64,000 bases of DNA, taken from positions 6,760,001-6,824,000 of the forward strand of contig OX485809.1 of the NCBI GenBank assembly GCA_950295325.1, in the 5' to 3' direction. Under the pieces are notes generated by a model. It saw only the letters and a program-made list of their open reading frames with translations, had not been told where the DNA came from and did no database searches. This DNA comes from Polytrichum commune. Lineage: Eukaryota > Streptophyta > Polytrichopsida > Polytrichales > Polytrichaceae. The position numbers were made by a program, and so were the translations under genes. Numbering within the stretch: the first letter of the stretch is position 1; each line of letters begins with the position of its first letter. Below are positions 15,539 to 63,385 of the stretch, piece after piece.

Positions 15539-15582
<44 letters not shown>

Positions 15583-18669: not shown

Positions 18670-19104
18670 AAACAAATGAGAGTGGGCTTACCATGGCCGC
18701 ATACAAAAACTTGCTGCCCCCGTATACGCTGTACACCGTCTCTCCATGGGTTGTCAAACTCTGGAGAATGGATATGTAGAATTCCAGCCTGAGTTCAACT
18801 GCGGGAATGACAGTAAATAACATCTCCTGGAATAGATCTTTGGGAGGTGGGTGCGGGATGTTGTATATCTTCTTGAATACATTGCTAGCCTTGATAGGGA
18901 CCCTCCCATCCCTTAGCTGGTTGAAGGTCAGGAAGACGAGGCTGACTGCTCCCACCTGCTTGTTTCCCCTGGCCTCGTTGATTACAACGATCCCTTCTGT
19001 CTTGGCGGGAACATAGGTGCTGTGGTAAATACTGTACTCGAACTTGATGGTCTTCTCGTACAGTTCCAGAATTTCCGACAGCCTCTCGTGCTGGACGACA
19101 CTTG
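17041..19104 (-). pseudogene. 3' part of an unknown multi-exon gene interrupted by the 44-kb insertion
   Basis: The exon at 19,104-18,692 begins at the insertion boundary and reads VVQHERLSEILELYEKTIKF, then ITYN-like hydrophobic and Pro-rich stretches, ending FLYAAM before GTAAGC. After a 223-bp intron, the exon starting at 18,468 opens MLGLVVNSYLDATDEKEYKR. It carries Ser/Pro-rich segments, an acidic patch (DVSDEDEGDMDI), and a coiled-coil-like helix of about 55 residues (AELNSKLEQKMKEEMAATQE onward). A TAG at 17,332 interrupts the frame, which then stays open through an acidic tail (DLGGDEDEADLIEQTQ) to a possible donor at 17,041 (GACGAG before GTAACT). No domain is recognised. Its upstream half is at 63,382-63,989. 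The composition suggests a nuclear or regulatory protein, but this is weak inference. Confidence 0.6.
19101..19104. other. Left copy of the CTTG target-site duplication
   Basis: CTTG directly precedes the left inverted end and recurs at 63,382-63,385 directly after the right end. Keeping a single copy restores the interrupted exon's frame. A GT/AC pair at the junctions means the duplication could also be counted as 2 bp. Confidence 0.75.
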
Positions 19105-19150
19105 TATGTGAGCGTAGAGCGTAGAGCGGAGAGCGGAGAGCGTAGATAAA
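19105..19150. repeat. Left terminal inverted repeat with AGAGCGG-type tandem units
   Basis: Seventeen terminal bases match the right end perfectly. Four to five 7-8 bp units follow (TAGAGCG, TAGAGCGG, AGAGCGG, AGAGCGT). Short subterminal tandem motifs of this kind serve as transposase-binding sites in several plant DNA transposon families. Confidence 0.85.
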
Positions 19151-19495
19151 ATAAAAATAGCAAACCTTCCAGATAAAAATAGGAATGTTTCAAAAATAGA
19201 CAAGAATATGCTTGGAATATTCCAGAATCTGCCAAACTTAGTAAAAAAATTGGACCTATTTCCGTGGGAATTATAGGTCATAAAAGAAACAAAAATGCCC
19301 TGAAATTGAAATGGTCTCACTAAGTTTGGAGACCGCGAGGTGGTTGAATTGTTAAAACCATGGATGATTACAAGAAAAAATCAATGAAAATGGATATTCT
19401 GAGATTGGTATAATTGAAGAATGAATCAATCAAAATACAAAGGAATCAAAATAATCAACTTCCTTCGTTTTTATTCATCACTTTTCTCTTTGTCT

Positions 19496-19502
19496 TATAT
19501 AT
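19496..19502 (+). promoter_or_regulatory. Candidate TATA box of the small charged-protein gene
   Basis: TATATAT lies 102 bases upstream of the ATG at 19,604. Confidence 0.4.
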
Positions 19503-19603
19503 GAGTCTACTCTATAGCTTGGAGTTTAGCAATTATCGTTTGTGGCCGAATAGATTATATATTGGACTCATACCCAACATCATTGTATATACACTTGCAT
19601 ACA

Positions 19604-20072
19604 ATGGGTGATGAAAGAGACATGTTTGCTGGATTAGGATGGGATAAGGAAATTAGAAGTCTAGCAGATCCTCATATTCCGGTTAATTTATCGCCGGAAT
19701 TTTCGTTTGCTGCTGGAAATCGAAGTAGTGATGACTACGACCTGACTCCATTTTCGCAGTCTACACAAGCATGGAGGTGGAGGACGCGGGAGGAACAAAA
19801 ACAACGTGAAAAAAAAAAAAAAAAAGCAGGAAGATGTGCCCGAGAATGACGCAGATTTGGATGAAGACAAATCGAACGAAACGGAGGAGGAGGTGAAGGT
19901 GGAAGGGGAATATTCGAAGTCTATTTCATTTCGCGAAAGGATGAGAGCCTTGCCGCCGCATCATCTTCCGCTGAAGGATCGAAAGAGAGATAAGACAGTT
20001 TCTTATATGGATTTGCTTCGACCGGGTCCACCTCCCTCGGATTCACCCAAGAAGTATGTAAAACGAAAATAG
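19604..20072 (+). pseudogene. Small highly charged protein, frame broken at an A17 run
   Basis: The first frame starts MGDERDMFAGLGWDKEIRSL and runs to the A17 tract at 19,809-19,825, where it would soon terminate. The next frame continues QEDVPENDADLDEDKSNETE and ends SPKKYVKRK at 20,072. With one A fewer the two join into 155 residues: an N-terminal ordered part, a basic patch (REEQKQREKKKKK), an acidic patch, then a Pro-rich basic tail. No family is recognised. Transcriptional slippage on the A-run, a genuine frameshift mutation or a sequencing error in the homopolymer could each explain it. A TATA-like motif lies upstream and AATAAA downstream near 20,117, so it looks like a real transcription unit of the element. 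Confidence 0.5.
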
Positions 20073-20233
20073 AGTTGATAGACAAATGATACATTGTAAT
20101 ACGATACTTTGAATGGAATAAACATAATCATTGAGATTATATCTTTATTATATCAATCAATTATTGCTTCACAAGAGGTCCTAAAATGGACACATATATC
20201 ATATCCCAATGTAGTGCTAGGTTGAGAGGAATT

Positions 20234-23200
20234 CTAGGAAGTAGATTGACTCAAGAGACCTCCCTCCATGATGAGTTTGACCTCATTGAAACTAAATGTC
20301 GGGGCGTGTATGAACAAATTCACTTCCGCATCCAAATTAGAAACCTTGACGAAGATGTAATACAGATGCTTACAATTCATATAAGAATTTCGTTTGCAGC
20401 CGAACTTGGAAATCATATCCAAGAAGTAGGCACAGTTGCACTCTGGAAGAGAACTCACTGTCACTTGGTAGATGGGTGGTTGGGGTTCTGATTTGGACTG
20501 CAGTGTGATAATGCAACCAAATCCCGGTTGAGGGATCATAGTTAACTTCAGAACAGTCGCATGCATAGCTTCAGCAGAGGCCACCATCTGCCTCTGCTTT
20601 GCCGAAGGTGCGCTGCTGGATCGCCGAACAAGCTTGGACAGTCTTGTGGTAGGGATGAAGTCGGGGTTTTCTGGAACACGGATTCGAGACATATCCAGCG
20701 GGGTCGCAGAGTTGGTGAAGAGTCGAGTCGGTGTGATGCGCTCCTTTGGTGGGAGTTGAAAACCTGCATTCTCAAGCGCAAAGATCTCCGAGCGGGTGAG
20801 GTTGGTACCAATCTTCACGGGCCAAATTGGGAGAATAGGTGGCTTCTAGTCATCAGCAGAGAACGGCATGACCCATTTCCGACGAGGGCCCTTGACGCAA
20901 CGCTCGATGTCGTCTGGACAAAAGACGAAGTCAGTGCGCTTCATAGATTGGAGTTTATAGTGATGCCACATACCGGTGTAGGTGGGCGCAGGGACGCTCT
21001 TGTTATTGGTGACGATTCTTGCGGTGCACTTCTTCTTTGTGCCCGCATGATTAGCCCAACAAGACTTCCCAGAGGTATAGGGTATGCGGGCAATATGCCA
21101 AAGAGAGACATCTACTTTGGTTTCTTGCACGGCGGTGACACGCTGGAAACCAAGTCCTGCAGGTAAAGGTACTTGAACCTCTTGTACAGAGGGGGAAGAC
21201 TCCTCAATGATAGTAGGCAGTGTTTCAGGTTGAGAGCGAGTGACTCGCTTACCGGGGGGAGGGCGAGAGAAGTTCACGGTATCCGGACGGTGGGTTTCGC
21301 CATCATCACCAATTGGAGTGTCGGGTCTTCGCTTCTGCGATCCAAACACCTCGGCGCCCTCAAGGTGTGGATCACGAGTGCAAAACTCTTCCCCACCGGG
21401 CATGTCAAGCAAGACCTTCTGCAACATTGTGGGGTCGCCAATACGTTGAGCTCGACGTTGAGCACCCCTGAGCTTGAGTTCTTCTTTGCTTGGACCGTCT
21501 CCGCCAATTCCACCTTTAAGGAACTGGTAGTATGCAACAACTTGTAAGAAGGCCCGAATGTAGTCGTCCACCGTAGCCACGTATAGATCTCCACCCTTGT
21601 TGCCGGAGGCTTGAAGCCACTTGTTGTGGACGGATTCCGCAAGATTGCAAGACAGCATCTCGGCCAACTGGTCTTGGGTTAAAACCTTTTCCTGATTGGA
21701 GAAATGAAGTGTTAGAATAGGCACAGAGAGAGGAAACCGAAACCATGAAGAACCAAAAATGAATCATGAAGGAGATGTACCAGTTCCATGAAACCACCCC
21801 ATTGAAGGTAGCGGAAGTGCCAGAAAGCAAGCCAGAGCTGAAGATGCTTGAGACCGTCCTCACTCGTACAATTCGATGACGCCCACCAAGCCTTGATAGC
21901 TAGGTACCTAGTCTCCGCCTCTTGCATAGAGGAAGCATTCCGATATTGAAGGCAAAGGTGTCTATGTTGGTCTTGTAAGTCATGCTTTATATACGATTTT
22001 GTATGCTTTTCGAGCGATTGTTTCCAATGAAAAAAACAAGTGCGCTCACGACCCTCCATGGGAACTTTGGGATCCCCCGAACCATACACAATGCGAACAG
22101 CGTTCCAATTGGCTTGGGCACTGTCGGCCATGAAGCCTATAAAGTTTGGATGTGGGATACCGTGACGGGCCATGACGTGGTTGAGGTTCTGCCAGAAGAG
22201 AACTTGGGCATCCTTATCCTCGGATTGGAAATCACAACATGAAATGGTCATGACCCGTTGATAAGTCCCATCGTAAACATGAGCGGCCATGGTGGTCCAC
22301 CCTTTGACCCGCTTGACGTGATCGGACATCATCCAGGCATTCTCGAGGTCCCCACCCGGTTGCATCCGACGAACCAAATCCACACCACTTCCAGGACCCA
22401 CCTCCGACATCTTGAAGACGAACACCTTGTCGGTATCGTCACCTTGTCCTGGGAATTGGTTCCGTTGGACGTAAGCCCAATTGCTAACGCCCCGGAGCTT
22501 TGCGATGCCATCCATAACACCGAACCTCCGCAAATATTTGAAAGAGGTAACCTTAGAGCGAAGGTTGGGGGAATTCAACTCTCTACAACTCTCAAACACA
22601 GGTTCGAGCTCTTTCAAGGAGAGGAGACGTTGTGTGTCATTATTACCAGAAAGGAGGAAATCACCTACAATGTCCTTGCTGGCTTCGAGGACGATCTTGC
22701 TGTACGTGGCTTGAGGAGAACGGTCAACGTGCTCCTCGAGAAGTGCATTGATACGCTTACGGCTGTCTCTGCAGTCTCCAACCTTGACTGGATGTTGATG
22801 AGTACCGATATGAATGCAGGCTCTTTGGGAGGACTCCTTCCCATGGACGTAGAAGATTTTGGCATCGCATAGTGCAATGCATTTGGGAGGTTGTTTGCAG
22901 ATCCTGCAAACAAGAGTAGATCCGGATGGCACAATGCCAGAGAGAGGGAAAGGATCTTTAGTGAAACCTTCAAATTCCGTGTCGTTGACCTTAGATGCAC
23001 GATGGGGTCGTTGAAGGTAATCACAACTAGGGTTTTGGCATTGGAGATTGTCGCGCACCTCTCCATGAGGAGTGCCCGAAACACCATGGGCACAAGGGGG
23101 ACCCCGGAGTGACACCCGGGACTTGTGGCGCCGTTGGTGAGAGGGCCCAAGTGATCCTAGTGTGGGTGAGGGCCCCGGGCGTTGGGAACGCCTCCCACCC

Positions 23201-24855
23201 ACGGAGACTAGGATGCACAAGGGTAAGGCCATAAGCTATGCGTAGCTCATGGCGTGGTGATTCTAGGATGCTCAAGAACACCTCAATCGGAGGTGTGAGC
23301 TAGGAGTTATGGCCATTTGAGTGGGGTGCTGTCCCGGGACAGCGCCCTGGTACAGCGGTGCCTGGGAGTGATTCCCGGGACTGCCAAGGTTCAAACAGGC
23401 ATAACTTCCTCAAGACTTGCTCAAATGGAGCAAGTGAGGAGTTCATCGGCATCTACGTGAAGCGTAGATGAAGATGGAGTGGTTGGTTGTTATGATCAGA
23501 CATCATACAAGGAAGTTATGATGGTCTGAAGCTGCTGGGGGGGTTCTAGGCCCAGCAGCTGAAGGAAAATGTCCACTTGGCCCCAACTCTTGGTAGAGAG
23601 ACAAGAGGTTGGTTGACGGTGGGGTAGGGGCCCCGCGTGAAGTCCTAGAGGCTTATATGGGTGAGGTGGTGTGGCCTCACCCACCCGAGGCCGAACGGCA
23701 AGGCCTCCATGGGCTTTGGCCTATTGTGAGGCCATAGTTGCCTAGTATGCTTCGGGTTGTTGTAGTGTTGCTCCGGCAACGCGATGATCAACATAGGATT
23801 GGACTTCCATGGATGGAAGTCCACATTGGGGAAATGGGTTACCGATTAAGGGGTGAGTCCCGAAAGCAAAGTAGGAGGGTTGGTTCCCTCCTATGAACTA
23901 TTGGTCCGGGGTAAGAGGAGCTATCCATTAGCATGGCGGAATGCGAATGGTTAGCGCTCGTAACCTTTGCTAGAAACGAAAATTGGCAAGATTGTTAAGG
24001 GACCTAGCAAGGGTTGCGACAGAGATGGCCAACACAGGCAGAGGAACGAAAGGCAAGGCCAACGTCGTTTGTAATGTTGGTGGTTTGAGTCTTAGTCCAA
24101 ACATGGCCATCATATTGCTTGTCCATGCCGTCCAAGGACTTGGCCCTGGTTTGAGAGGAAGAGACTTCTGCTGCAGGGAGGACAAATAACTGGGTACCAT
24201 CGAAACGAGGGGGAAGGTGATTAACTAATTGGATTTGTAGTTTATCGTAATCTAATTTCTTGAGGACGTTCTTACTACCTGGCATAGAACCAAGATGACG
24301 AAGACATTGAACAATAGGTTGAGGAGGCTTGGACGTAGAGGGTATTGAAGTAGGTGAAGGCACAGAGAGAGAAGGAGAGGGCGTTACATAGGCAGGAGAG
24401 GGAAACAAAAGAGGAGAATCATAAACTGCTACATCTTCATGCTGAACTGGTCCATCTTCATTCGAAGAATCAGACAAGTCTATAACGTTGTCTAGACCAG
24501 GCTCGGTCTTGACACTTATTACGGGAGGGGTGCTAAAGGCAGCAGTGGATGATCGAAGAGGAGTAAGGATTTCTGTCGACACTCCGATCTGAGAATCTGG
24601 CCAGCCACATACCCTATACTTTCCCGCGGCAAGCTCCCAAACTACAATGCCATTGTCGGATACCTTGGAGGTCTCATGGAAGGTATGAATGAGCAATCCA
24701 GTATCAGGATGGAAGATCTCACGCTCTACCCATATTGTATTGGGTTTGAAAGAGAACCTAATGCTAAGATGAAGCTCGGAGACAACAGCAATACCTCGTG
24801 CATCAATGGGGAAAAGAATGGGGACCCCGATGCCATGGGAATGAAGTTCGGCCAT
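20234..24855 (-). pseudogene. MULE-type transposase with WRKY-GCM1-like and SWIM zinc fingers (disrupted)
   Basis: It reads leftward in four pieces. (1) From ATG at 24,855: a 250-residue N-terminal region with an acidic stretch and a Pro/Ser-rich linker, ending at YDGHVWTKTQ (about 24,100), the tryptophan strand of a WRKY-GCM1 finger. (2) After an interruption, from about 23,110 to 21,781: the Cys pair CQNPSC and the ACIHIGTHQHPV His strand. This is followed by a DDE core, with D at 22,270-22,272 (VYDGTYQ), D at 22,123-22,125 (FMADSAQ) and CFFH at 22,028-22,039, the CxxH seen in MULEs. (3) After an 89-bp intron, 21,691-20,846. (4) In the same frame past a TAG at 20,846: a SWIM finger, CNC at about 20,435 and CKH at 20,367-20,375. 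WRKY-GCM1 plus MULE plus SWIM is an established architecture for plant transposases. The third acidic residue was not assigned with confidence. Confidence 0.75.
23060..24020. mobile_element. Roughly 0.9-kb GC-rich insertion splitting the zinc finger (possible solo LTR)
   Basis: Between the tryptophan half and the cysteine half of the WRKY-GCM1-like finger lies about 0.9 kb of GC-rich, non-coding sequence unlike the flanking transposase. It contains short inverted words such as GGGCCCC and TCCCGGGA and a TATATG near 23,656. No splice sites in good context frame it. An LTR or another small insertion is more likely than an intron, but the exact ends and a target duplication were not resolved. 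Confidence 0.4.
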
Positions 24856-25112
24856 CACAGCGAGGGGGATGTGCAAAGATGGGAATGAGAAAGAGGATGC
24901 TGAAAAGTGTGGAATACTTATCCATTGTACATATGCTTTAAAAAGGGTAAACAATGAACAGTGACCAAAAATACCGTAAACCCTAAATCTTGAACAGTGG
25001 CACTATAAAGGTCTGAGAGGGTTGGGGAAGGGTCTTTTTGGGAGCGAAGGAAAGGGATGTTGAGAGAGTAAAGAGTACAAAAAGGGAAGCAGAGCGGAAC
25101 TGGGACGCACAC
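24856..25112. promoter_or_regulatory. Shared divergent promoter of transposase and ParB/methylase-like gene
   Basis: The 257 bp between the two start codons carries TATAAA at 25,004-25,009, 104 bases before the plus-strand ATG. A TTTAAA at about 24,937 is usable by the minus strand. A CCCTAAA word near 24,980 resembles a plant telo-box. One region may control both genes. Confidence 0.5.
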
Positions 25113-25457
25113 ATGAAGGAACCAGAGCACAATACAGATTCCACAATAGATATAGGAAAGAAGCGGAAGAAGCGAAAGGGAGGATTGAGTTTCAGCAATT
25201 CGAAACAGAGGAGACGGAGAGAACTGAAGAAGAAGGAGGAATCGTACATAGAGGGTAGAGGAACCCCATCAGACGTGCAAAGCACAGGTGGAGAGAGCAA
25301 GAGAGGATCTTTGAAACGGCAATTGAATCTGCAGCCGATAGAGGAAGACCGGGAGGATAGTGAATCCCCCGCGGCATCTATGGAAGAAAGCGAGCAACCC
25401 AACAGTTCAAATCAAAGCGGATATCAGGAGGAGACAAGAGATGATTCCATTCTTATA
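25113..25457 (+). CDS. Exon 1 of the ParB/methylase-like gene (basic N-terminus)
   Basis: ATG at 25,113 opens 115 codons ending SILI before GTAAGA at 25,458, a strong donor between codons. The protein is hydrophilic. A run of Lys/Arg (GKKRKKRKGG, residues 15-24) looks like a nuclear localisation signal, and a second basic patch (KQRRRRELKKK) follows. The link to the exon at 54,884 is inferred. That exon has a good acceptor (TTTCTTTTTGTGTAG), no upstream exon between, and a matching phase. If right, intron 1 is 29.4 kb and consists almost wholly of satellite. If wrong, this is a separate small charged protein and the downstream gene starts at the ATG at 54,896. Confidence 0.5.
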
Positions 25458-26072
25458 GTAAGATTGTCGTTTAAGTTATATGAAAAATGGCATTTGAGGA
25501 TTCAATTTCAAGCAAACACGACAATGGAATGATTGTATGGTTAGGATAACGGACACATATCAGAAAGATTGAATATATGTTCAAACGGTGGTCTCGGCAC
25601 CGAGAGGGTACCTCCAGGAACCCTCAGTCACAGTCGAATGTTAGAATGGATATACGAGTCAAGGTTAAATTTGCGGCACATTTTAGTGTGCGCAATGGAT
25701 TGAGAGAGAATGAGGTTGGAGGATTTTGATAAAAGGTTCTTAAGCTTCATGGATGAATGAATATATGCTTTGGTAGTTCAATGTGTGGTTTGTTGGAGTT
25801 TGAGAGGGAAATGCATTAGTTGAAGGGGACCAGATTTTGTCATTTTGTGGAATGCTCCGAGGGGGAAAGCTTGACGATGACTAGGACTAGATTTTGGAGG
25901 AGCCAATGAGCTCTCGGCTCGGCTCCGAGAGGGTAAGGTTGAGGGGGTAAGGTAGAGAGGGACCCGATGTTGAGGTTGTGTGGAGGCGTCGAGTTCATGG
26001 TTGTGGGGCTCTCGGCACCAGGTGGTATGTTTTCTGAAGGACCAGATTTCGCATTGTTTCGAATGTTTGAGT
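25458..26072. repeat. Pre-satellite zone with CTCTCGG/CCGAGAG palindromes
   Basis: Diverged phrases of the satellite appear here (GACCAGATTTTG, CTCCGAGAGGGTAA). They are mixed with inverted motifs such as CTCGGCACCGAG near 25,595 and GGCTCCGAGAGG near 25,916. The same words return at the far end of the repeat block, near 60,540. Confidence 0.7.
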
Positions 26073-29000
26073 TAGCAATTTGATTCGGAGAGGCTAGGCA
26101 CTCAAGGGTAATGGACCAGATTTTGACTTTGTTGTGTATGCATGAGTTAGCACTTAGATTCCGAGAGGCCAGGCATTCAAGGGCCTTGGACCAAATTTCG
26201 CGTTGATCTGAATGTCTGAGTTAGCACTTAGATTTCGAGAGGCTAGGCACTCAAGGGTCTTGGACCAGATTACGCATTCTTTTGAATGTTTAGGTTACCA
26301 CTTAGATTCCGAGAGGCTAGGCCTTTCAAGGGTAATGGACCAGATTTTGACTTTGTTGTGTATGCTTGAGTTAGCACTTAGATTCCGAGAGGCCAGGCAT
26401 TCAAGGGCCTTGGACCAGATTTCGCGTTGATTTGAATGTTTGAGTTAGCACTTAGATTTCGAGAGGCTAGGCACTCAAGGGTCTTGGACCAGATTACGCA
26501 TTGTTTTGAATGTTTAGGTTAGCACTTAGATTCCGAGAGGCTAGGCCTTTCAAGGGTAATGGACCAGATTTTGACTTTGTTGTTTATGCTTGAGTTAGCA
26601 CTTAGATTCCGAGAGGCTAGGCACTCAAGGGTCTTGGACCAGATTTTGACTTTGTTGTGTATGCTTGAATTAGCACTTAGATTCCGAGAGGCTAGGCACT
26701 CAAGGGTAATGGGCCAGATTTCGCATTGTTTTGAATGTTTGAGTTAGCACTTAGATTCCGAGAGGCTAGGCACTCAAGGGTCTTGGACCAGATTTTGACT
26801 TTGTTGTGTATGCTTGATTTAGCACTTACATTCCGAGAGGCTAGGCATTCAAGGGTCTTGGACCAGATTTTCGCTTTGATTTGTATGTTTGAGTTAGCAC
26901 TTAGATTCCGAGAGGCTAGGCCTCTCAAGCGTCATGGACCAGATTTCGCATTGTTTTGTATGTTTGAGTTAGCACTTAGATTCCGAGAGGCTAGGCCTTT
27001 GAAGGGTAATGGACCAGATTTCGCATTGTTTTGAATGTTTGAGTTAGCACTTAGATTCCGAGAGGCTAGGCACTCAAGGGTCTTGGACCAGATTTTGACT
27101 TTGTTGTGTATGCTTGAGTTAGCACTTAGATTCCGAGAGGCTAGGCCCTTTCAAGGGTCATGGACCAGATTTCGCATTGTTTTGTATGTTTGAGTTAGCA
27201 CTTAGATTCCGAGAGGCTAGGCACTCAAGGGTAATGGGCCAGATTTCGCATTCTTTTGAATGTTTGAGTTAGCACTTAGATTCCGAGAGGCTAGGCACTC
27301 AAGGGTCTTGGACCATGTTTTGACTTTGTTGTGTATGCTTGAGTTAGCACTTAGATTCCGAGAGGCTAGGCACTCAAGGGTCTTGGACCAGATTTTGACT
27401 TTGTTGTGTATGCTTGAGTTAGCACTTAGATTCCGAGAGGCTAGGCACTCAAGGGTCTTGGACCAGATTTTGACTTTGTTGTGTATGCTTGAGTTAGCCC
27501 TTAGATTCCGAGAGGCTAGGCACTCAAGGGTAATGGGCCAGATTTCGCATTGTTTTGAATGTTTGAGTTAGCACTTAGATTCCGAGAGGCTAGGCACTCA
27601 AGGGTAATGGGCCAGATTTCGCATTGTTTTGAATGTTTGAGTTAGCACTTAGATTCCGAGAGGCTAGGCACTCAAGGGTAATGGACCAGATTTTGACTTT
27701 GTTGTGTATGCTTGAATTAGCACTTAGATTCCGAGAGGCTAGGCACTCAAGGGTAATGGACCAGATTTTGACTTTGTTGTGTATGCTTGAGTTAGCACTT
27801 AGATTCCGAGAGGCTAGGCCTTTCAAGGGTCTTGGACCAGATTTTGACTTTGTTGTGTATGCTTGAATTAGCACTTAGATTCCGAGAGGCTAGGCACTCA
27901 AGGGTAATGGGCCAGATTTCGCATTGTTTTGAATGTTTGAGTTAGCACTTAGATTCCGAGAGGCTAGGCACTCAAGGGTCTTGGACCAGATTTTGACTTT
28001 GTTGTGTATGTTTGAGTTAGCACTTAGATTCCGAGAGGCTAGGCATTCAAGGGTCTTGGACCAGATTTTCGCTTTGATTTGTATGTTTGAGTTAGCACTT
28101 AGATTCCGAGAGGCTAGGCCTTTCAAGGGTAATGGGCCAGATTTCGCATTGTTTTCAATGTTTGTGTTAGCACTTAGATTCCGAGAGGCTAGGCCTTTGA
28201 AGGGTAATGGGCCAGATTTCGCATTGTTTTGAATGTTTGAGTTAGCACTTAGATTCCGAGAGGCTAGGCACTCAAGGGTCTTGGACCAGATTTTGACTTT
28301 GTTGTGTATGCTTGAGTTAGCACTTAGATTCCGAGAGGCTACGACCTTTCAAGGGTCATGGACCAGATTTCGCATTGATTTGTATGTTTGAGTTAGCACT
28401 TAGATTCCGAGAGGCTAAGCATTCAAGGGTCTTGGACCAGATTTTCGCTTTGATTTGTATGTTTGAGTTAGCACTTAGATTCCGAGAGGCTAGGCCTTTG
28501 AAGGGTAATGGACCAGATTTCGCATTGTTTTGAATGTTTGAGTTAGCACTTAGATTCCGAGAGGCTAGGCACTCAAGGGTCTTGGACCAGATTTTGACTT
28601 TGTTGTGTATGCTTGAGTTAGCACTTAGATTCCGAGAGGCTAGGCCCTTTCAAGGGTCATGGACCAGATTTCGCATTGTTTTGTATGTTTGAGTTAGCAC
28701 TTAGATTCCGAGAGACTAGGCACTCAAGGGTAATGGGCCAGATTTCGCATTCTTTTGAATGTTTGAGTTAGCACTTAGATTCCGAGAGGCTAGGCACTCA
28801 AGGGTCTTGGACCATGTTTTGACTTTGTTGTGTATGCTTGAGTTAGCACTTAGATTCCGAGAGGCTAGGCACTCAAGGGTCTTGGACCAGATTTTGACTT
28901 TGTTGTGTATGCTTGAGTTAGCACTTACATTCCGAGAGGCTAGGCATTCAAGGGTCTTGGACCAGATTTTCGCTTTGATTTGTATGTTTGAGTTAGCACT

Positions 29001-30439
29001 TAGATTCCGAGAGGCTAGGCCTCTCAAGCGTCATGGACCAGATTTCGCATTGTTTTGTATGTTTGAGTTAGCACTTAGATTCCGAGAGGCTAGGCCTTTG
29101 AAGGGTAATGGACCAGATTTCGCATTGTTTTGAATGTTTGAGTTAGCACTTAGATTCCGAGAGGCTAGGCACTCAAGGGTAATGGACCAGATTTTGACTT
29201 TGTTGTGTATGCTTGAGTTAGCACTTAGATTCCGAGAGGCTAGGCCTTTCAAGGGTCTTGGACCAGATTTTGACTTTGTTGTGTATGCTTGAATTAGCAC
29301 TTAGATTCCGAGAGGCTAGGCACTCAAGGGTAATGGGCCAGATTTCGCATTGTTTTGAATGTTTCAGTTAGCACTTAGATTCCGAGAGGCTAGGCACTCA
29401 AGGGTCTTGGACCAGATTTTGACTTTGTTGTGTATGTTTGAGTTAGCACTTAGATTCCGAGAGGCTAGGCATTCAAGGGTCTTGGACCAGATTTTCGCTT
29501 TGATTTGTATGTTTGAGTTAGCACTTAGATTCCGAGAGGCTAGGCCTTTCAAGGGTAATGGGCCAGATTTCGCATTGTTTTCAATGTTTGTGTTAGCACT
29601 TAGATTCCGAGAGGCTAGGCCTTTGAAGGGTAATGGGCCAGATTTCGCATTGTTTTGAATGTTTGAGTTAGCACTTAGATTCCGAGAGGCTAGGCACTCA
29701 AGGGTCTTGGACCAGATTTTGACTTTGTTGTGTATGCTTGAGTTAGCACTTAGATTCCGAGAGGCTAGGCCCTTTCAAGGGTCATGGACCAGATTTCGCA
29801 TTGTTTTGTATGTTTGAGTTAGCACTTAGATTCCGAGAGGCTAGGCAAGCAAGGGTAATGGGCCAGATTTCGCATTCTTTTGAATGTTTGAGTTAGCACT
29901 TAGATTCCGAGAGGCTAGGCACTCAAGGGTCTTGGACCATATTTTGACTTTGTTGTGTATGCTTGAGTTAGCACTTAGATTCCGAGAGGCTAGGCACTCA
30001 AGGGTCTTCGACCAGATTTTGACTTTGTTGTGTATGCTTGAGTTAGCACTTAGATTCCGAGAGGCTAGGCCTTTCAAGGGTCATGGACCAGATTTCGCAT
30101 TGTTTTGAATGTTTGAGTTAGCACTTAGATTCCGAGAGGCTAGGCACTCAAGGGTCTTGGACCATATTTTGACTTTGTTGTGTATGCTTGAGTTAGCACT
30201 TAGATTCCGAGAGGCTAGGCACTCAAGGGTCTTCGACCAGATTTTGACTTTGTTGTGTATGTTTGAGTTAGCACTTAGATTCCGAGAGGCTAGGCCTTTC
30301 AAGGGTCATGGACCAGATTTCGCATTGTTTTGAATGTTTGAGTTAGCACTTAGATTCCGAGAGGCTAGGCACTCAAGGGTCTTGGACCAGATTTTGACTT
30401 TGTTGTGTATGCTTGAATTAGCACTTAGATTCCGAGAGG

Positions 30440-54883: not shown

Positions 54884-57800
54884 GAGTCTCAAGCTATGGA
54901 TCTCATTCTCTCCGAGGATCCATCCACAGATGCCCATGTTCTTCAATTGGAGCCTGCCGAGGTGGAAGTTGATCCACTTGTCGATGTCCAACCGGGAAAG
55001 GTGTTCTCTATGTGAACTCTTCCTTTTGTTTCCAAGCACTCCCGGTACCTTGGCTTTCAATATATTTTGGGCTTAATCTCATATCTTTGTTTCCACCCTT
55101 GTAGATTGATTCACCTCATCAATCTGACCCCGTGCGTCCTCTTGATGAGTCTACTGCGGAGGAGACTGAGCTCGAGATTCGGAGATCCCAAAAAGAAGAC
55201 TCTATCGGTGTGATTCATAGGGTTCGCATCAAACCTCTTGCTAAGTCACATTTCTCTATTCCATTGTGCCGCTTGCAATGTCTTCCTCTTGTTCGCCCCA
55301 TCAGCAAGGTCGATGTTGCTCGGCTGCAAAACGAATTTGTCATGGGTTACCGTGACGGTGACCGTGCAATGTATGTCTCTCCCTACAACAACCTTGATGA
55401 GGTGCTTCTAGTTTCGGATGACATTCGAGCCTCCTGGAGTTCACTATGGCAGGAGTCTAGTGATGAGTTTGATTCCATGCTCGAGAAGGATTCCGACCTC
55501 TCTCAATTTGTTGGCAAGATGTTTTTCGTGTGAGAGGGGAATCATCGCTTGACGGCTTGGCTTAGACACATTAACAAGCACCATTCCATGGACAAAGATT
55601 GGCACATCTCCGTGGACTGCATTGTTGTCGACCCGAGAAACTGTGCTGCCGTCTTCCTTAATGCAATGAATGACATCAACTGGTAAGTTTGTTTTTGTTT
55701 GGGTTCTTATTGTTTGTTTTCCTTTCTCAAAATTTTTCATCTTTTGTTTCTCGCTTACTTATTCCTAGTAGGTCCACGGAGCACGACCATGTCAAGGACA
55801 ACCTTCCCGCCAAGCTCCTCCGCATTCGAACATTTGGGAAGATGAAACTTGAGGAGTTCAAGGACCTCATTTCTCCCCAAGACTACAAGACTTGCGAGGC
55901 CAAAATGCTAAAAACTCCAACTTGGTATCCTCTTACCTTGGACATATTCGTCAAATTCTTGTATAAGGTGATTCTCCCTCCCCTTCCTTTTGCTTTGATA
56001 GCCCACAAGCATGTGTTCATACTTGCCATCTTACCCTCCAAAGACAATGACATATATGGGCTTATGCCTTTCTTCTCTTCATTTCTGTCATTCATTTTCA
56101 CTTCTCTTTGTGTGTTTTAGAGAGAGATCTTGAACGCAGCCGACACTGCAGCAAGGTTGTACCGGGAGAATACACCCGAATCCCGCAGGTCAGCTACCGA
56201 AATTTGGGATACTATGACCAAAGCGCAAGAGAAACTCATCAAGAGTATTCGGACTCGAAATTTCGAGAAGTTCATTTCCGTCGCCCACAAGGATAATGGC
56301 GAAGACTTCTTCTATGAGGTGCGCCTCCGATTTGTTTTACTTTTGGCTTTCAACTTCATCTTTCATCCATTCTAGTTTCATCTTTCTTACACTCTCATAT
56401 GTTGCAGATTGACCGTCATTTTTCCACCTTCATGTACCCCGATATGACGATAGAAAAACTTCAAAAGGTGGCAACCACCCATGTCGATGCCTGTTTCAAA
56501 GCCAAGTGGCTTCGGTGGTGGAATTCTCCCGCCAAGGTCAAAATGGAAAATCAATTCCCCTCTTCTCTTCCTCTCCGTGAGAAAGTCCTTGACGACTGGC
56601 TTAACAAAGCTTCTTTTTGGGCACAGGTACATCTTCATCTTTTGTGTCTTCTTGTTTGTTAGTTTCTCTCATTTCCATATCTAACTGTTGGTCTCTCTTT
56701 ATATAGTTGGAGAAGGGCGTTGAGGCTGAGATTGCATCGTTTGAGAACGAGTTGTCCGTGGACATTGATTGGAATTCCACGGAGATTTTACACCCGTCCA
56801 ATTATGTTGAGCATTGGAGGCTCATTTTGTGGGACAAGGCTTTCCGGGTGTATTTTGAGGACAAGGCCGATTTAACATTTAGTAAAGGCCTTGACCTCTT
56901 CGAGTTCGACGAAGGCCCCATCGCCATCAAACGCGTTGCTTATTGGTACTCTTTTCCTTTAATTTTTTTCATCGCTTTCGTTTCCTTTCCACGGCAATTT
57001 TCTTACTCTATGTTTTCCATTTTCTAGGTACATTCACCGCGAGCTCTTTGTGAAGAATGTTTTGCCTCCTTCGTCCTTGCCCGCTTTCCTTTTGGAGTGG
57101 ATCGATGTCCACTCCAATCTTTGTGTCTATACGGCCATGCAAGTTGCAAAGTTTCCACCCTCGCACTTGAAGGAATGTGGTTGGTATTTGGATTGCTCTC
57201 GTGCATTTGTGCCCGATGAAGAAGAAGCCCTTTACGGCAGCCTTGTGAACTCCGGCCCCGACGTCATTGAATTGGATGAGGAGCCAGATGAACCTACTCC
57301 CGCTCCTCCATCGGTTGAGAAGGATGTTGCGCCCTTCAAGGGTAGAGGCAGAGGTAAGAAGGCTCTCGCCCATGCCTCTTCTCAAGTTTCCTCACGTTCT
57401 AATGCCAAGGCCTCCGTTCAACGCAATGTTCCTCCAGCCACCACCGTGGTTGGAAGTCCCACCGCCACTCCATCTGCCGCCCTCGCCAATCCGGTAGTTG
57501 CTCCTTCTCATAGCGGTGTAACCATTCCATCTGTGCCTCGCAAGCGGAAGGCTGTTGCACCTGATACGTCGGCAACTTCCTCCGACATGTCATCTTGCCA
57601 TTCTTTGATTGAGAATGTGGACATGGGGGAGCTCATTGAGGATCTCATGAAGACCAAAGTTCCACCTCCGGCCTACCGACGCATCCAAGACTTCCTAACA
57701 AAGGTTTGTGTGCATTGTTTTATTCTTTCATTCAATGTATTTCATCATTTTCTTATTTTTTGACTTTCTTTGCATTTTGACCTTTCAGGTTGGAGCGGGT

Positions 57801-59131
57801 CGTACTCGTCCAAACACCAAGCATAAGGTTCACACGGGCATTGATCTCCTGTTTGCAGATGTGCCCGAGAACCTACGTGTTCCGGGCATCACTTCCTCAT
57901 CCTCGGATGTTCCTCACTGGAACATCCGCTCAGCCACTTACTTCGAGGTTCTGTTTGCATTCGCGAATGCCAACCTTCATGACGATGGCGTCCTCGTCTT
58001 TGCGCATGCTGCCGATCCAGAGGTTTCGAGATCAATTCATAACTGGGCTCACACAGAGGATTTCTATGTTGCCGAGGACTGGTTCGGCATGAGCGACCTC
58101 GATCTTCAATCTCCCTCTAATCCGTCTGAACTGGTACTTCTTCTTGGCCTTCATCCATTTTCATTCATAGTCTTTTTGTTTTGTTCTTGTTTTCCTAACT
58201 CTAGCTTTCACAATTTGCGCAGACTCGGAAATTTTTCATCAAGGTACTTGTGCGGAACCGGTCCGTTTTGAATGTCCGCACGTCGGACTTCATGGACATG
58301 GGCTACAATCTCAAACGAGATGATTGGCTCAACAACTTCACCGATTTGAAAAACCAATCCGTGAGGGTCGACGGGGTGTCTTGGAGAGGCGCCCGTGAAA
58401 AGCGTCCGGAATTTTTTTCGATCCTTTTCTCCGCCCTCACAGATAAGGACGACATTATATTGGATTGGCAGTGTGGTGTTGGTTCGTTCTTCTTCTCTAG
58501 TTTTTCTCATTTTTTTTCCTTTTGGATTTTTTGTTTTCATTTGTAATCGGTTGCTTATTCATTTCCCAATGCTAATCCCTTCGCATTTTGTTTGTTTAGG
58601 AGGTTCCATAATAGCATGCCGCTCCATTCAACGCCATATTGTGGCGCTTGAATCCGACATTGATGTCTTCAAGTCCATCCTCCTCCCCCTTCGCGAGCCT
58701 GACCAAGAACAAACCTCTCAACCCGCCGCCCCTCAACGAGGCTCCGTTTTTGCTCCTCTTCCTCGAAAGATGGCCAAGCGCAATTTCGATTTGCTCTGTG
58801 AGTAAGTTCGTTCGTTGATTCTACCTTGTTTTCCTTTGTATCTTCAAGTGTTTGACATAGATACATGTGCTCATGTTTTTTTCTTTTTTCATCTATGTAC
58901 AGAGTTCAAATTAAAAGCCCCATCCGCTTTCTTAATGCGGAGATTTTTGCAACGCCTTCGGCGACGTTCGAGCTCCCTCCTTATGCTTCAGAGCTTGCCC
59001 ATCGTTTGGCCGAAGCACCATCCCCACCTCCTAGTCGCATCCGGCCTTACAACAAACTAGTATTGGATTTCCTAGACATAGAGGCAGAGCAGGGCGAGGA
59101 AAGTGATAGACATAGTAGTCATAGTGGTTGA
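54884..59131 (+). pseudogene. ParB-like plus N6/N4 DNA methylase-like protein, exons 2-12 (one in-frame TGA)
   Basis: Exons: 54884-55000, 55105-55682, 55772-55967, 56121-56318, 56408-56626, 56707-56945, 57028-57703, 57789-58133, 58223-58481, 58600-58801, 58903-59131. All are GT-AG and in phase; with exon 1 they give about 1,200 residues. Exon 3 holds a ParB/sulfiredoxin-like core: RPISKVDVARLQ, then EGNHRLTAWLRHI, where GNHR matches the GxHR/GERR nucleotide-binding box. A TGA at 55,531 stands exactly before EGNHR, probably from TGG. A helical region and a Pro/Ala-rich linker (exon 8) follow. Exons 9-11 resemble a beta-class DNA methylase, with a motif IV-like LLFADVPENL followed by a motif I-like LDWQCGVGGS and IVALESD. 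DPPY is not intact, so methyl transfer is doubtful. ParB fused to DNA methylase is well known in phages and prokaryotes. Confidence 0.65.
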
Positions 59132-59266
59132 CTACGATTCGTGCATCTCTAACCCCATTTCATATGTATTGCGTTTGCTATACTTTTTATAAAAGTGTTT
59201 TATGAATTTCAATTTTCCTTTTGCAATCCCATATATCTCCTTGGTCGTCTTATGTTGGTGTTTGAG
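59132..59266. other. 3' region of the ParB/methylase-like gene
   Basis: AT-rich sequence between the stop codon and the inverted satellite. No canonical AATAAA was seen. Confidence 0.5.
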
Positions 59267-60490
59267 GCTAGCCTCTCGGAATCTAAGTGCTAACTCAAAC
59301 ATTCAAAACAATGCGAAATCTGGTCCAAGACCCTTGACTGCCTAGCCTCTCGGAATCTAAGTGCTAACTCAAGCATACACAACAAAGTCAAAATCTGGTC
59401 CATTACCCTTGAAAGGCCTAGCCTCTCGGAATCTAAGTTCTAACTCAAGCATACACAACAAAGTCAAAATCTGGTCCAAGACCCTTGAGTGCCTAGCCTC
59501 TCGGAATCTAAGTGCTAACTCAAACATTCAAAACAATGCGAAATCTGGTCCATTACCCTTCAAAGGCCTAGCCTCTCGGAATCTAAGTGCTAACTCAAGC
59601 ATGCACAAGAAAGTCAAAATCTGGTCCATGACCCTTGAGTGCCTAGCCTCTCGGAATCTAAGTGCTAACTCAAACATACAAAACAATGCGAAAATCTGGT
59701 CCAAGACCCTTGAATGCCTAGCCTCTCGGAATCTAAGTGCTAACCCAAACATTCAAAACAATCCGAAATCTGGTCCAAGACCCTTGAAAGGCCTAGCCTC
59801 TTGGAATCTCAGTGCTAACCCAAACATTCAAAGCAATGCGAAATCTGGTCCATGACCCTTGAAAGGCCTAGCCTCTCGGAATCTAAGTGCTAACTCAAAC
59901 ATACAAATCAATGCGAAATTTGGTCCATGTCCCTTGAAAGGGCCTAGCCTCTCGGAATCTAAGTGCTAACTCAAACATACAAATCAATGCGAAATCTGGT
60001 CCATGACCCTTGAAAGGCCTAGCCTCTTGGAATCTAAGTGCTAACTCAAACATACAAATCAAAGCGAAAATCTGGTCCAAGACCCTTGAATGCCTAGCCT
60101 CTCGGAATCTAAGTGCTAACCCAAACATTCAAAACAATGCGAAATCTGGTCCATGACCCTTGAAAGGCCTAGCCTCTCGGAATCTAAGTGCTAACTCAAA
60201 CATACAATTCAAAGCGAAAATCTGGTCCAAGACCCTTGAATGCCTAGCCTCTCGGAATCTAAGTGCTAACCCAAACATTCAAAACAATGCGAAATCTGGT
60301 CCAAGACCCTTGAAAGGCCTGGCCTCTCGGAATCTAAGTGCTAACTCAAGCATTCAATTCAATGCGAAATCTGGTCCATTAGCCTTGAAAGGCCTAGCCT
60401 CTCGGAAACTAAGTGCTAACTCAAACATTCAAATCAATGCGAAATCTGGTCCATTAGCCTTGAAAGGCCTAGCCTCTCGGAATCTAAGTG
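59267..60490 (-). repeat. Inverted 1.2-kb satellite array (about 16 copies of the 75-bp unit)
   Basis: The same unit as the main array, but in reverse complement (GCCTCTCGGAATCTAAGTGC). It has more single-base variants (CTTGGAATCTC, CGGAAACTAAG) than the main array. Together the two arrays flank the downstream exons of the ParB/methylase-like gene in inverted orientation. Confidence 0.95.
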
Positions 60491-60529
60491 GCCACATTTT
60501 GTATGAAAGGGGGAGGTTAGATTTTTTGT

Positions 60530-61100
60530 TGGGTAGGCTCTCGGCTCCGAGAGGGTAATCCCTTGGGCTCTGGGACCAGATATTGTTTCAATGTGGGTGG
60601 TTACATGTTTGGTTGGGTAGGCTCTCGGCTAGTTAGTGTAGAGCCTTAGTTAGAGGGGCCAGATTTTGGATGAATGTGAAAGCCTTCATGTTCTGTTAGT
60701 TTAGGCTCTCGGCTAGGTAGTCTAAGGTCTTAGTTAGGGGGGCCATATTTTGGATGAATGTGAAAGCCTTCAAGTTCTGTTAGTTTAGGCTCTCGGCTAG
60801 TTAGTGTAGAGTCTTAGTTAGAGGGGCCAGATTTTGGATGAATGTGAAAGCCTTCAAGTTCTGCTAGTTTAGGCTCTCGGCTAGTTAGTTCAAGGTCTTA
60901 GTTATATGGGGCTATATTCTGGATCAATGTGAAAGCTTAGAGGTCATGTTTGTTTAGGCTCCCGGCTAGTTAGTGAAGGTCTTAGTTATAGGGGGCCATA
61001 TTTTGGATGAATGTGAAAGCTTCAAGGTTATGTTTGTTTAGGCTCTCGGCTAGTTAGTTCAAGGTCTTAGTTATAGGGGGCCATGTATTGGATGAGGGGT
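60530..61100 (+). repeat. 84-bp tandem repeat (about six copies)
   Basis: GGCTCTCGGCTAG recurs at 60,620, 60,704, 60,788, 60,872, 60,957 and 61,041. Each is followed by GGGGCCAGATTTTGGATGAA-like sequence. Shared words (CCAGATTTTG, CTCTCGG) link it to the 75-bp satellite and to the zone left of the main array. Confidence 0.85.
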
Positions 61101-61348
61101 TCATCATATGGTGGTCTAGCCCGGATCCTCTACTTGAGTTTTGATTCACCCCTTTAATACAAGGCAATCAAACCAAATATACTACCAATCATAGACACCT
61201 CACCTTTCTCCCTTTTCACATTAGACCCTTAACAAATGCAATGACTTGGGTAACTATATATCAGCCACAAATGGTTGCAAGCTCATATTCATGCAAGCGT
61301 CACTAAAGGTGCGTCTCTTGGCCTCTCTTCATGTTTTGTTTGCTCTTG

Positions 61349-62225
61349 AGTAGCATTTGGCTTGTGATTGTGAATTTGTTGGCTTGGACTTCAACTCTGA
61401 TCTTTTGAGGTTAGGCCAGATTATCAACTTGTGAGGTTCAATGGCCTTCAGTAGCATTTGGCTTGTGATTGTGAATTTGTTGGCTTGGACTTCAACTCTG
61501 ATCTTTTGAGGTTAGGCCAGATTATCAACTTGTGAGGTTCAATGGCCTTCAGTAGCATTTGGCTTGTGATTGTGAATTTGTTGGCTTCGACTTCAAATCT
61601 GATCTTTTGAGGTTAGGCCAGATTATCAACTTGTGAGGTTCAATGGCCTTCAGTAGCATTTGGCTTGTGATTGTGAATTTGTTGGCTTAGACTTCAAATA
61701 TGATCTTTTGAGGTTAGGCCAGATTATCAACTTGTGAGGTTCAATGGCCTTGAGTAGCATTTGGCTTGTGATTGTGAATTTGTTGGCTTAGACTTCAAAT
61801 ATGATCTTTTGAGGTTAGGCCAGATTATCAACTTGTGAGGTTCAATGGCCTTCAGTAGCATTTGGCTTGTGATTGTGAATTTGTTGGCTTAGACTTCAAA
61901 TATGATCTTTTGAGGTTAGGCCAGATTATCAACTTGTGAGGTTCAATGGCCTTGAGTAGCATTTGGCTTGTGATTGTGAATTTGTTGGCTTAGACTTCAA
62001 ATATGATCTTTTGAGGTTAGGCCAGATTATCAACTTGTGAGGTTCAATGGCCTTCAGTAGCATTTGGTTTGTGATTGTGAATTTGTTGGCTTAGACTTCA
62101 AATATGATCTTTTGAGGTTAGGCCAGATTATCAACTTGTGAGGTTCAATGGCCTTCAGTAGCATTTGGCTTGTGATTGTGAATTTGTTGGTTTAGACTTC
62201 AAATCTGATTTTGTGATGGTAGGTC
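61349..62225 (+). repeat. 101-bp tandem repeat (8.7 copies)
   Basis: AGTAGCATTTGGCTTGTGAT starts units at 61,349, 61,450, 61,551, 61,652, 61,753, 61,854, 61,955, 62,056 and 62,157, with only a few substitutions between units. It directly precedes the small F-box-like gene and may be part of its promoter. Confidence 0.95.
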
Positions 62226-62278
62226 TATATTTACATGTTGAGATATTGGAGGACTCAAGCACTATCCTCATATTCAAG

Positions 62279-62965
62279 ATGCCGTGGATAGGTAAGTTCA
62301 TTTGGCCCTACATTATGAAGTTCATTTTTGTTTGATTTTATAGCCACAACATTTGTGTTCAATCCACATTTGAATTGTGTTGGTTAATTCTGATTTAATT
62401 AAATTCTGGTTGTGTGTTTCAATGTGTTTCAGGGGGTAACGCGAAAACTCGCCGATTCGTTTTGGATGTGCCACACGTATTGCAGCTGGATTTAGATGTG
62501 CAGTTGTCCGTACTAGTGCCCAACTTAGTGTTGGGTGCCGCAAAAGATTTGATTGGCCGGGAGAGGGCATTTGATACCAAACGCCGTTTGGTTTTAATCG
62601 GGAAACTGCGGCTATGTTGCAAGGCTTGGAAGCGGATTGTGGATAGCACTGTGGAATACAATGCTCTTCGTCTGGCGGCGCATGAGTTTAGGATGGGTCC
62701 ACATGGGATGCCAGAGTTGTATTTGCCACGCGAGCATAACCTGGTTAAATTGTTTAAATTGAACTTCATGTTGTTTTCAGAGAGCCGGCACGTCACCTCG
62801 AGAATTTTCCAGAGGATTTTGAGGTCGGAGTTGGGGGATTTGTCTTTGCGGTCTTTGGCTAAGCTAAGGACTGAGCTGGAAGCCTCTTATGGTGCGGAGA
62901 ATATGTATGGCATGTTCTTTGGGCCATCTTGGCCATATTGGACATGCCCGGCAAATAGGGTGTAG
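62279..62965 (+). CDS. Small F-box-like protein, two exons
   Basis: Exon 1 (62,279-62,291) encodes MPWI and one base. After a GTAAGT donor and a TGTTTCAG acceptor, exon 2 (62,433-62,965) continues GGNAKTRRFVLDVPHVLQLD to a stop, giving 181 residues. Residues about 55-85 (RLVLIGKLRLCCKAWKRIVD) resemble the second half of an F-box, where a Cys-Lys-x-Trp core recruits SKP1 in ubiquitin ligases. The N-terminal half of the box is weak and no substrate-binding repeats follow. The rest (HNLVKLFKLNFMLFSESRHV) is unrecognised. The gene is intact, unlike the larger genes of the element, and sits about 0.4 kb from the right terminal repeat. Confidence 0.55.
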
Positions 62966-63300
62966 ATGGCCGAAAACTACAGTATATAGCTACTTGAACT
63001 GACTACCCATTTTTGTAACTTTTGAGGTTGGCTACAATTTGTTGACCAATAATATATTTTGTGTATGGTATTTTGATTTAAATTTGGTGACGTCAGCCCT
63101 AATGGAATATGATACATTTGAAACAAATACTATAAGATGTTTGATAAAAAATGCAATCTTCCATGCCTATAGGATCCGTTGGTTTCTCGAACAATTTTGG
63201 GTTATTATGTCCACGGGAATGGGGTGCATTTCCAAATATAGAATTCCATCTATCTCTAATTCCACGGAAATAGGCACTGCTTCTCCTAAAATTACCCAAC
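62966..63300. other. Subterminal region of the right end
   Basis: AT-rich and non-coding. Contains the reverse complement of CCTATTTCCGTGG near 63,262, a motif also found near 19,250 at the same side of the left end. Confidence 0.55.
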
Positions 63301-63310
63301 AAAATCTATA

Positions 63311-63332
63311 TTTTCCGCTCTCCAATCTCCGT

Positions 63333-63370
<38 letters not shown>

Positions 63371-63381
63371 ACGCTCACATA
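63311..63381. repeat. Right terminal inverted repeat with CCGCTCT tandem units
   Basis: About eight CCGCTCT units (reverse complement of AGAGCGG) end in CGCTCTACGCTCACATA, the exact mirror of the left end. Confidence 0.85.
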
Positions 63382-63385
63382 CTTG
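63382..63385. other. Right copy of the CTTG target-site duplication
   Basis: CTTG immediately follows the right inverted end and matches 19,101-19,104. Confidence 0.75.

Follow-up and report, generated by a model that had tools for sequence, protein, structure and literature searches.

What kind of segment, about 44 kb long and with inverted ends, splits one exon in a stretch of DNA from Polytrichum commune, where it begins and ends and what made it so large are the questions raised by this locus (NCBI GenBank assembly GCA_950295325.1, contig OX485809.1, positions 6,760,001 to 6,824,000 of the forward strand; this whole stretch of 64,000 nucleotides is called the window, and positions are counted from its first letter). 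The segment is a DNA transposon of 44,301 bp (19093-63393), with the same 10 bp, CTCTCGTGCT, perfectly duplicated on its two sides, and its outer limits were set by the sequence common to other copies in the same genome; that it is a transposon which inserted with a 10-bp duplication is virtually certain. The overall explanation judged on balance probable is a family of cut-and-paste transposons resembling Mutator-like elements (MULEs), with an accessory protein that would bind the tandem arrays of the element. The features at its borders are:

19083-19092: target site duplication, left, CTCTCGTGCT
19093-19121, plus strand: left terminal repeat, from alignment with the right end; outer 12 bp unlike, inner 17 bp perfect
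19110-19146: left subterminal heptamer tandem (GAGCGTA/GAGCGGA)
63314-63376: right subterminal heptamer tandem (TCCGCTC)
63365-63393, minus strand: right terminal repeat, from alignment with the left end
63394-63403: target site duplication, right, CTCTCGTGCT

The 17-bp inverted sequence TATGTGAGCGTAGAGCG, from which a sequence-only reading of the window had started, occurs once per strand, at 19105 and 63365, and the subterminal tandems of AGAGCGG type that it had described are present inside both ends. Homology with other copies extends further outward, with GGACGACACTTG at the left and CTTGAGTTTCCC at the right, and the limits of 19101-63385 given in that reading were replaced by the present ones. 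The true boundary had been overlooked because the termini (repeats of about 29 bp, plus heptamers) agree fully only over the inner 17 bp and no more than patchily over the outer 12. CTTG, taken in the same reading for the target duplication, does stand on both sides, but it is part of the imperfect terminal repeats shared with other copies and was ruled out in that role. In the 10 candidate end pairs read, left ends start with GGACGACACTTGTATGT and right ends close with CACATACTTGAGTTTCCC, one closing with TTTCAC instead. For any one pair of positions, a 10-bp match by chance has a probability of about 1e-6.

The genome was searched for further copies with the same ends, as the sequence-only reading had proposed, and 250 matches to the left terminus (up to 2 mismatches) and 104 to the right terminus (up to 1 mismatch) were obtained, against 0 for each reversed control. 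Nearest same-strand ends no more than 150 kb apart were paired, a procedure in which mispairing is possible, using 100 listed matches per end plus two left ends derived separately; this yielded at least 61 copies of 4.1-73.8 kb (median 17.8 kb), 24 of them above 20 kb and 9 above 40 kb. Flanks were read for 30 of the 61 pairs, the window included: a perfect 10-bp duplication was present in 25 and a duplication with a single mismatch in one more, a length within the range of MULEs (8-11 bp). All 25 perfect duplications differ from one another, and a strong consensus was not seen among them. Among the pairs whose duplication is perfect, the largest measures 64,062 bp, and others measure 59.4, 48.5, 47.3 and 45.3 kb. 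Four of the 30 pairs (23.4, 48.6, 50.6 and 73.8 kb) lack a duplication, with 5-9 mismatches, and count against the overall explanation; they may be mispaired or rearranged. One pair on C1 (65.36-65.55 Mb), 196 kb apart and with flanks mismatching at 6 of 10 positions, was dropped. In the 4.1-kb copy, which stands between perfect duplications, about 1.1 kb from the left end and 3 kb from the right remain and a transposase gene is missing, as would fit a deletion derivative that was mobilised in trans. The family is large and, to judge from its copies, was recently active, and the claim of a giant DNA transposon that carries cargo is borne out by the shared ends, the duplications and the paralogous empty sites described below.

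The interrupted sequence lies on the minus strand, in two parts:

17332-19092, minus strand: downstream half of the interrupted repeat gene, with coding part and flanking open reading frame (ORF)
63394-64000, minus strand: interrupted repeat gene, upstream half

The two half-exons share one frame, as had been seen from the sequence. The join HERGNS-SVVQHER (HERGNSSVVQHERLSE, HERGNSSVVQHER) predicted for them did not survive: it contains ten extra residues derived from the element ends and the duplicated target, and its frame had been kept because two errors sum to 30 bp. Removal of the element together with one 10-mer predicts the empty site LWIVEHERLSEILEL. When the joined 440 bases were searched against the genome, 9 loci matched over 440/440 positions at 97-100% and 30 further loci at 81-82% over most of the query, the 40th match being the window itself; in eight fetched loci the junction reads WIVEHERLSE (7/8) or WIVEHKRLSE (1/8). 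The proposed check for uninterrupted homologues was thus positive in nine loci, and the junction, as read in the eight fetched loci, differs from the join predicted earlier. The interrupted gene belongs to a repeat family (308 first-look candidates in the genome), so that the insertion need not have struck an ordinary host gene, and since the empty loci are paralogues of this repeat gene they show the state before insertion and not the excision by which the sequence-only reading had the frame restored. One family member, L028, has an open frame of 744 residues, for which no family match above cut-off was returned by Pfam or NCBIfam. Homology between the interrupted gene and the accessory gene of the element was considered and rejected, blastp and hhalign having given nothing usable; the likeness seen by eye remains a lead. 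A further giant copy (L001/L069, C7 at 39.39 Mb) seems to be inserted in the same gene family, further downstream, and the translation of its flank closely matches, by eye, the window ORF at 17332-18480, a possible target preference.

From left to right the element contains heptamers, a small ORF on the plus strand, a two-exon transposase gene on the minus strand, the main array and a nine-exon accessory gene on the plus strand; rightward of the latter follow further arrays, the right-most exon and the second heptamer tandem. Once the arrays and a nested long terminal repeat (LTR) are removed, 11.9 kb remains. The transposase gene is composed of:

21781-24855, minus strand: transposase exon 1, with D533, D582 and C611/H614 (numbering of copy L073); split in the window by the probable solo LTR
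20234-21691, minus strand: transposase exon 2, with candidate E715 and a SWIM-like CxC...CxH end; in-frame stop at 20846-20848

The gene product is, as predicted from sequence, a divergent DDE-like transposase under constraint. In copy L073 it is fully open (696 + 485 residues). Between the class of the window (class A) and the class of 16-19-kb copies (class B), the ratio of non-synonymous to synonymous substitution rates (dN/dS) is 0.17 for exon 1 (696 codons) and 0.12 for exon 2 (484 codons), with transposases 92-94% alike. Among the best 64 of 2,393 first-look candidates in a tblastn search with exon 1, 45 of 65 rows are free of stops, and the top score is common to four loci, the query's own included. 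A sister lineage was found beside left ends reading GGACGAG (one base different), where six of eight fetched loci contain a relative of the transposase; four are 53-54% identical over exon 1, and two are 61-62% identical over residues 190-694 and 35-36% before residue 190. The candidate catalytic and zinc-binding residues (D533, D582, C611/H614, E715 and a C-terminal CxCx19CxH) were read by eye.

By its 10-bp duplications and by the way its transposase is laid out, the family is likely to be MULE-like. Several results count against that assignment. Neither Pfam nor NCBIfam returned a match above cut-off for the protein, and PDB returned none at all; the sole Pfam row, FERM_M (E 0.0077), was below cut-off and was taken as chance; hmmscan at E up to 10 returned no MULE family, and for exon 2 nothing from Pfam. 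With 150 of 271 candidates scored, the MULE profile PF10551 matched 150 places in the genome and none in the window. An hhalign comparison with six MULE stretches of the same genome was weak (P 0.0043, probability 7.9%, from a shallow profile), and weaker still from a smaller number of rows (P 0.026, probability 1.9%). AlphaFold2, run on one window sequence, gave a predicted local distance difference test (pLDDT) value of 33 and was not used. The same misses would be expected of a separate DDE superfamily that makes 10-bp duplications and is no relative of MULEs. Such a superfamily is unlikely here, as passages of PMC6446971 give MULEs duplications of 8-11 bp, a range that includes the present length, and the order D-D-(CxxH)-E and the CxC...CxH end are recognisable by eye. 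Because PF10551 misses the transposase and the hhalign result is weak, the element is called MULE-like and was not filed as a MULE.

Tandem repeats make up most of the element:

26039-54861, plus strand: main 75-bp satellite array, 385 units, 28.8 kb, by Tandem Repeats Finder (TRF); between the 5' ends of the divergent genes
59268-60490, minus strand: second, inverted 75-bp array, 16 copies
60618-61095, plus strand: 84-bp tandem array (TRF)
61345-62223, plus strand: 101-bp tandem array (TRF)

The first of these is the satellite array that had been recognised inside the element from the letters alone. Together the arrays amount to 31,403 of 44,301 bp, and this share of about 71% offers a simple reason for the existence of giant DNA transposons: the window copy owes its size mainly to tandem arrays, and other copies also hold nested LTRs. 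Within the main array, 71% of the sequence lies in exact repeats of at least 300 bp (lags of, for example, 3,292 and 1,798 bp), which indicates recent segmental growth. In the 150 of 170 matches that were listed, the 75-bp satellite stays with the family: they fall into 19 clusters, 17 of them within 20 kb of a family end (32 left and 13 right ends were used, so distances to an end are upper bounds), and the other two clusters among the matches listed adjoin a type-A accessory gene. After accessory-gene pieces had been merged into 35 loci, each of the 13 type-A loci (at least 97%) proved to lie no more than 5 kb from a listed satellite match; among the matches listed, 21 of the 22 loci at 74-89% have no satellite within 1 Mb, and the 22nd has one 9.4 kb off, beside a type-A copy. 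Arrays of class A and class B show no similarity by blastn, and the main array of either class is placed between the two divergent gene starts.

One perfect 22-bp palindrome, GAGGCCTCGGATCCGAGGCCTC, is common to the class-B arrays, whose units measure 96, 117 and 127 bp. Two class-B copies hold 28 and 55 sites with up to 3 mismatches, 23 and 39 of them exact, and across 61 distinct sites the palindrome columns are 98.7% conserved, compared with 68% and 59% in the 40-bp flanks. Genome-wide, 2,678 sites were counted (up to 1 mismatch) against 0 for the pattern read backwards, and 64 of 65 distinct listed sites lie inside three paired elements. Sister elements were identified by the left end only, and seven stretches were examined: four contain CTGTCGGATCCGACAG in arrays of 170-171 bp, one contains GGGTGCCGTTAACGGCACCC in arrays of 234 bp, and two are without a repeated palindrome. 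In four of the five palindrome-bearing sister stretches, with the transposase start fetched, the array lies upstream of the transposase. Whether such sites are targets of a protein made by the element is, from these patterns, an evenly balanced proposition.

Three observations speak against it. The window class has no repeated palindrome; the conserved block of its 75-bp unit is broad and includes CCGAGAGGCTAGG (98.4% versus 88.6%, rank 8 of 63); and parts of the class-B array (183-204 bp) are 78-80% like positions 293-495 of the nested LTR, so that array units may start from chance sequence. Together with the long exact repeats of the window array, the first and the last of these would suit arrays that are selfish or neutral satellites, growing by unequal exchange or slippage, with palindromes kept by homogenisation or by hairpin-driven replication. 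This alternative has to be taken seriously and is nevertheless rather unlikely, for class-B units of three different lengths contain one palindrome whose edges are sharp (98.7% against 59-68% in the flanks), and the sisters have other palindromes, in arrays placed upstream of the transposase in four loci. The LTR-like pieces, a possible source of array sequence, are contained in the arrays at L073 7358-8047 and L076 2479-3264. For annotation, these arrays are a warning that satellites can be parts of transposons, as the short end repeats are a warning that a true boundary can be hidden.

The accessory gene is placed as follows:

55117-58800, plus strand: nine-exon accessory gene with GT-AG borders; one in-frame stop in exon 1 of the window copy
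about 55117-55682, 55772-55967, 56121-56318, 56408-56626 and 56707-56945, plus strand: accessory exons 1-5
about 57028-57703, 57789-58133, 58223-58481 and 58600-58800, plus strand: accessory exons 6-9

Nine exons with GT-AG borders are common to classes A and B, whose proteins are 61% identical; class-B copy L076 is without part of exons 5 and 6. The gene is open through all nine exons in class-A copies L079 and L081, and L082 is open over its retained part. Between classes dN/dS is about 0.1, a rough figure because dS, near 3, is saturated. Seven older copies were aligned as well; all seven contain stops and several have lost splice sites, and they were left out of the dN/dS calculation. Stops in four of the seven class-A and class-B copies checked (L074, L080, L083 and the window) count against the overall explanation, as do the values within class A, where dN/dS is 0.40-0.54 (five pairs) and recent constraint is therefore weak or partly relaxed. 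In the accessory-gene search C61:8279-10886 and C7:39384408-39387015 score equally; C61 may duplicate a piece of the C7 element.

The sequence-only reading had called this gene methylase-like. A profile of the last 269 columns of the protein (three rows, one of them a typed composite) was compared with PDB and gave two chains of adenine-specific DNA methyltransferases (E 0.0038), then two N4-cytosine enzymes (E 0.38 and 0.41), all at the region of the S-adenosylmethionine (SAM) loop; the remaining three of seven rows were two tyrosine phosphatase chains and an isoaspartate methyltransferase (E 0.63-1.9). A comparison with PHROGs pointed to the motif I region (E 0.015), and Pfam gave no family match. 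A weak resemblance to DNA amino-methyltransferases, carried by the SAM-binding loop region DWQCGVGGS...ALESD, has thus held up, whereas the catalytic DPPY-type motif IV is replaced, by DVPE or DIPE in classes A and B and by DMPD, DVPD or NVPK, for example, in decayed copies. The start of the protein resembles ParB by eye (IPLCRLR...GNHRLTAW); it has no match in Pfam or PDB, which tells against this likeness. Profile searches of the genome with ParB_N (PF02195) and PF01555 did not match the window gene; the PF01555 result says little because motif I of this gene is split by an intron.

The aromatic residue of a DPPY-type motif is needed for catalysis in DNA amino-methyltransferases. A working N6-adenine/N4-cytosine methyltransferase that its ParB-like part would recruit to the arrays, with methylation of the element as the result, is accordingly improbable with DVPE or DIPE in that position; what speaks for it is the alignment of the SAM-loop region and the agreement in domain order and opposite strand with the Ectocarpus Sola1-1 gene, as given in passages of PMC12477816.

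The same profile searches found matches elsewhere. The four ParB_N matches of the genome are on small contigs (C10, C12 and C23), in stop-free frames, and C10 and C12 also hold the three strongest N6/N4 methyltransferase matches, stop-free as well; these contigs look like bacterial or phage contamination. On chromosomes PF01555 scored above cut-off in 577-residue frames (e.g. C1:9662150-9662797 and C4:44111740-44111898), and about 100 weak matches, mostly to motif I only (profile positions about 163-196), include many in 119-residue frames; they point to large methyltransferase-like gene families, which perhaps belong to other transposons.

In the mechanism proposed for the MULE-like family, a DDE/SWIM-like transposase would act on the short terminal repeats and the heptamers, and broken copies such as that of the window would be moved in trans by transposase made elsewhere. 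The accessory protein would bind conserved sites in the array of its own lineage and, once bound, might keep the promoters of the element open or mark the element's own DNA, as VANC does for VANDAL. That the accessory protein is the one to bind the arrays is a tentative assignment, with somewhat less than an even chance of being right. Classes A and B are alike by about 90% in their ends and transposase but differ in array and accessory gene together, and the latter two therefore look like one exchanged module. In its fullest form the proposal holds that each lineage has private array sites (GAGGCCTCGGATCCGAGGCCTC, CTGTCGGATCCGACAG or GGGTGCCGTTAACGGCACCC) and, to go with them, a ParB-like protein whose methyltransferase is disarmed, a self-recognition like that of ParB/parS, that array and protein are inherited or swapped as a module and that growth of the arrays made the transposons giant; taken as a whole this is conceivable and leans towards doubtful.

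In other families zinc-binding ends are found on transposases that bind subterminal repeats, and the matches listed for the satellite are situated in or next to elements, as they would be if the transposase itself bound the array sites as extra recognition sites. This is quite improbable, for the transposase is 92-94% alike in classes A and B while the arrays are dissimilar, and it is the accessory gene that differs along with the array. The array contains exact repeats of several kb, of the type that assemblers get wrong, but its collapse or expansion in assembly is a very improbable explanation for part of the 44-kb size, since ends, genes and duplication are independent of the array and large copies with perfect duplications, up to 64.1 kb, stand at other loci.

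The smaller parts of the element are:

19604-20072, plus strand: small accessory ORF1, 81 codons before a stop in the window; 155 codons in copy L073
23049-24021: nested insertion, probable solo LTR, 973 bp, TG...CA, with a 5-bp duplication GAGAT; absent from L069
62399-62965, plus strand: right-most coding exon, with a weak F-box-like match (E 0.015) below cut-off

For ORF1, dN/dS was 0.44, 0.68 and 1.03 in three short comparisons, and for the shared part of the right-most exon 0.44 over 78 codons; judged from these ratios both genes are at most weakly constrained, a point against the overall explanation. Single and spliced ORFs, compared with Pfam and NCBIfam, gave only matches below cut-off, and a scan of the window with Rfam gave nothing of use. 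As exon 1 of the transposase is split by the LTR, and exon 2 and the accessory gene each contain a stop, the window copy is probably not autonomous now. The same LTR (0.97 kb) recurs as same-strand pairs inside the giant copies L070 (3873-6067) and L071 (2730-8016), one pair being only about 230 bp apart, and nested LTR elements therefore add to the size of other copies. Outside the element the window contains AG and AAC microsatellites (12725-12770 and 15539-15582) and a degenerate 13/63-bp tandem (13858-14076).

Compared with known systems, the element is closest in its ends and transposase to MULEs. The 10-bp duplication is shared, a DDE order with CxxH and a SWIM-like C-terminus can be read by eye, and the MULE domain table in PMC6446971 also includes short terminal inverted repeats; the Pfam model misses the transposase, and the terminal repeats are only about 29 bp long, with the outer 12 bp unequal. 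The GG...CC ends resemble the GGG...CCC of Abermu, a barley MULE that is called much larger than other MULEs at 8.2 kb in the passage seen of PMC9168764, whereas most listed paired copies measure 12-64 kb. Like Pack-MULEs, the element has MULE-type ends around sequence other than transposase; unlike in these, no captured host gene fragment was identified, a systematic search not having been made. A published description of this element or of its palindromic arrays was not found in the searches made of the open-licence literature, of which PMC6431247, seen in part, is a review of giant transposons.

In VANDAL elements, VANC proteins bind short motifs that have accumulated in tandem repeats and remove silencing, according to the part of PMC5735166 consulted. 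The presence of an accessory gene together with a transposase gene and the lineage-specific motifs in non-coding tandem repeats are common to both systems (PMC5735166, same part). An accessory gene and an array motif were seen together in the same element in class B; in the sisters the arrays alone were seen, and in the window class the pattern is weaker. The accessory protein here looks ParB- and methyltransferase-like, and it is likened to VANC by arrangement, not by sequence. The window array is 28.8 kb long, and the motifs of class B and of two sister groups are palindromic, further differences from VANDAL.

Sola elements make 4-bp duplications; the present element makes 10-bp ones and has another transposase. 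It nevertheless recalls the giant transposons of algae, among them Sola1-1_Ec32 of Ectocarpus, in which a protein with ParB-like and methyltransferase parts is encoded opposite the transposase (PMC12477816, in the passages on these elements). Giant size and an accessory gene on the opposite strand, as observed here, are shared with Sola1-1_Ec32 and its red and green algal relatives, as are nested transposable elements, broken transposases and, as far as the weak and by-eye resemblances go, a ParB-like and methyltransferase-like protein, and those passages of PMC12477816 suggest that ParB-methyltransferase genes bind and modify their own element. Here the catalytic motif is degenerate and the ParB part unproven. 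The element-specific palindromic arrays are a further difference, none being mentioned for the algal elements in the passages of PMC12477816 concerned, which also gave no target; in the present family candidate targets are visible in the sequence as bounded, lineage-specific palindromes in the arrays, and the idea of self-binding is therefore directly testable by a binding assay.

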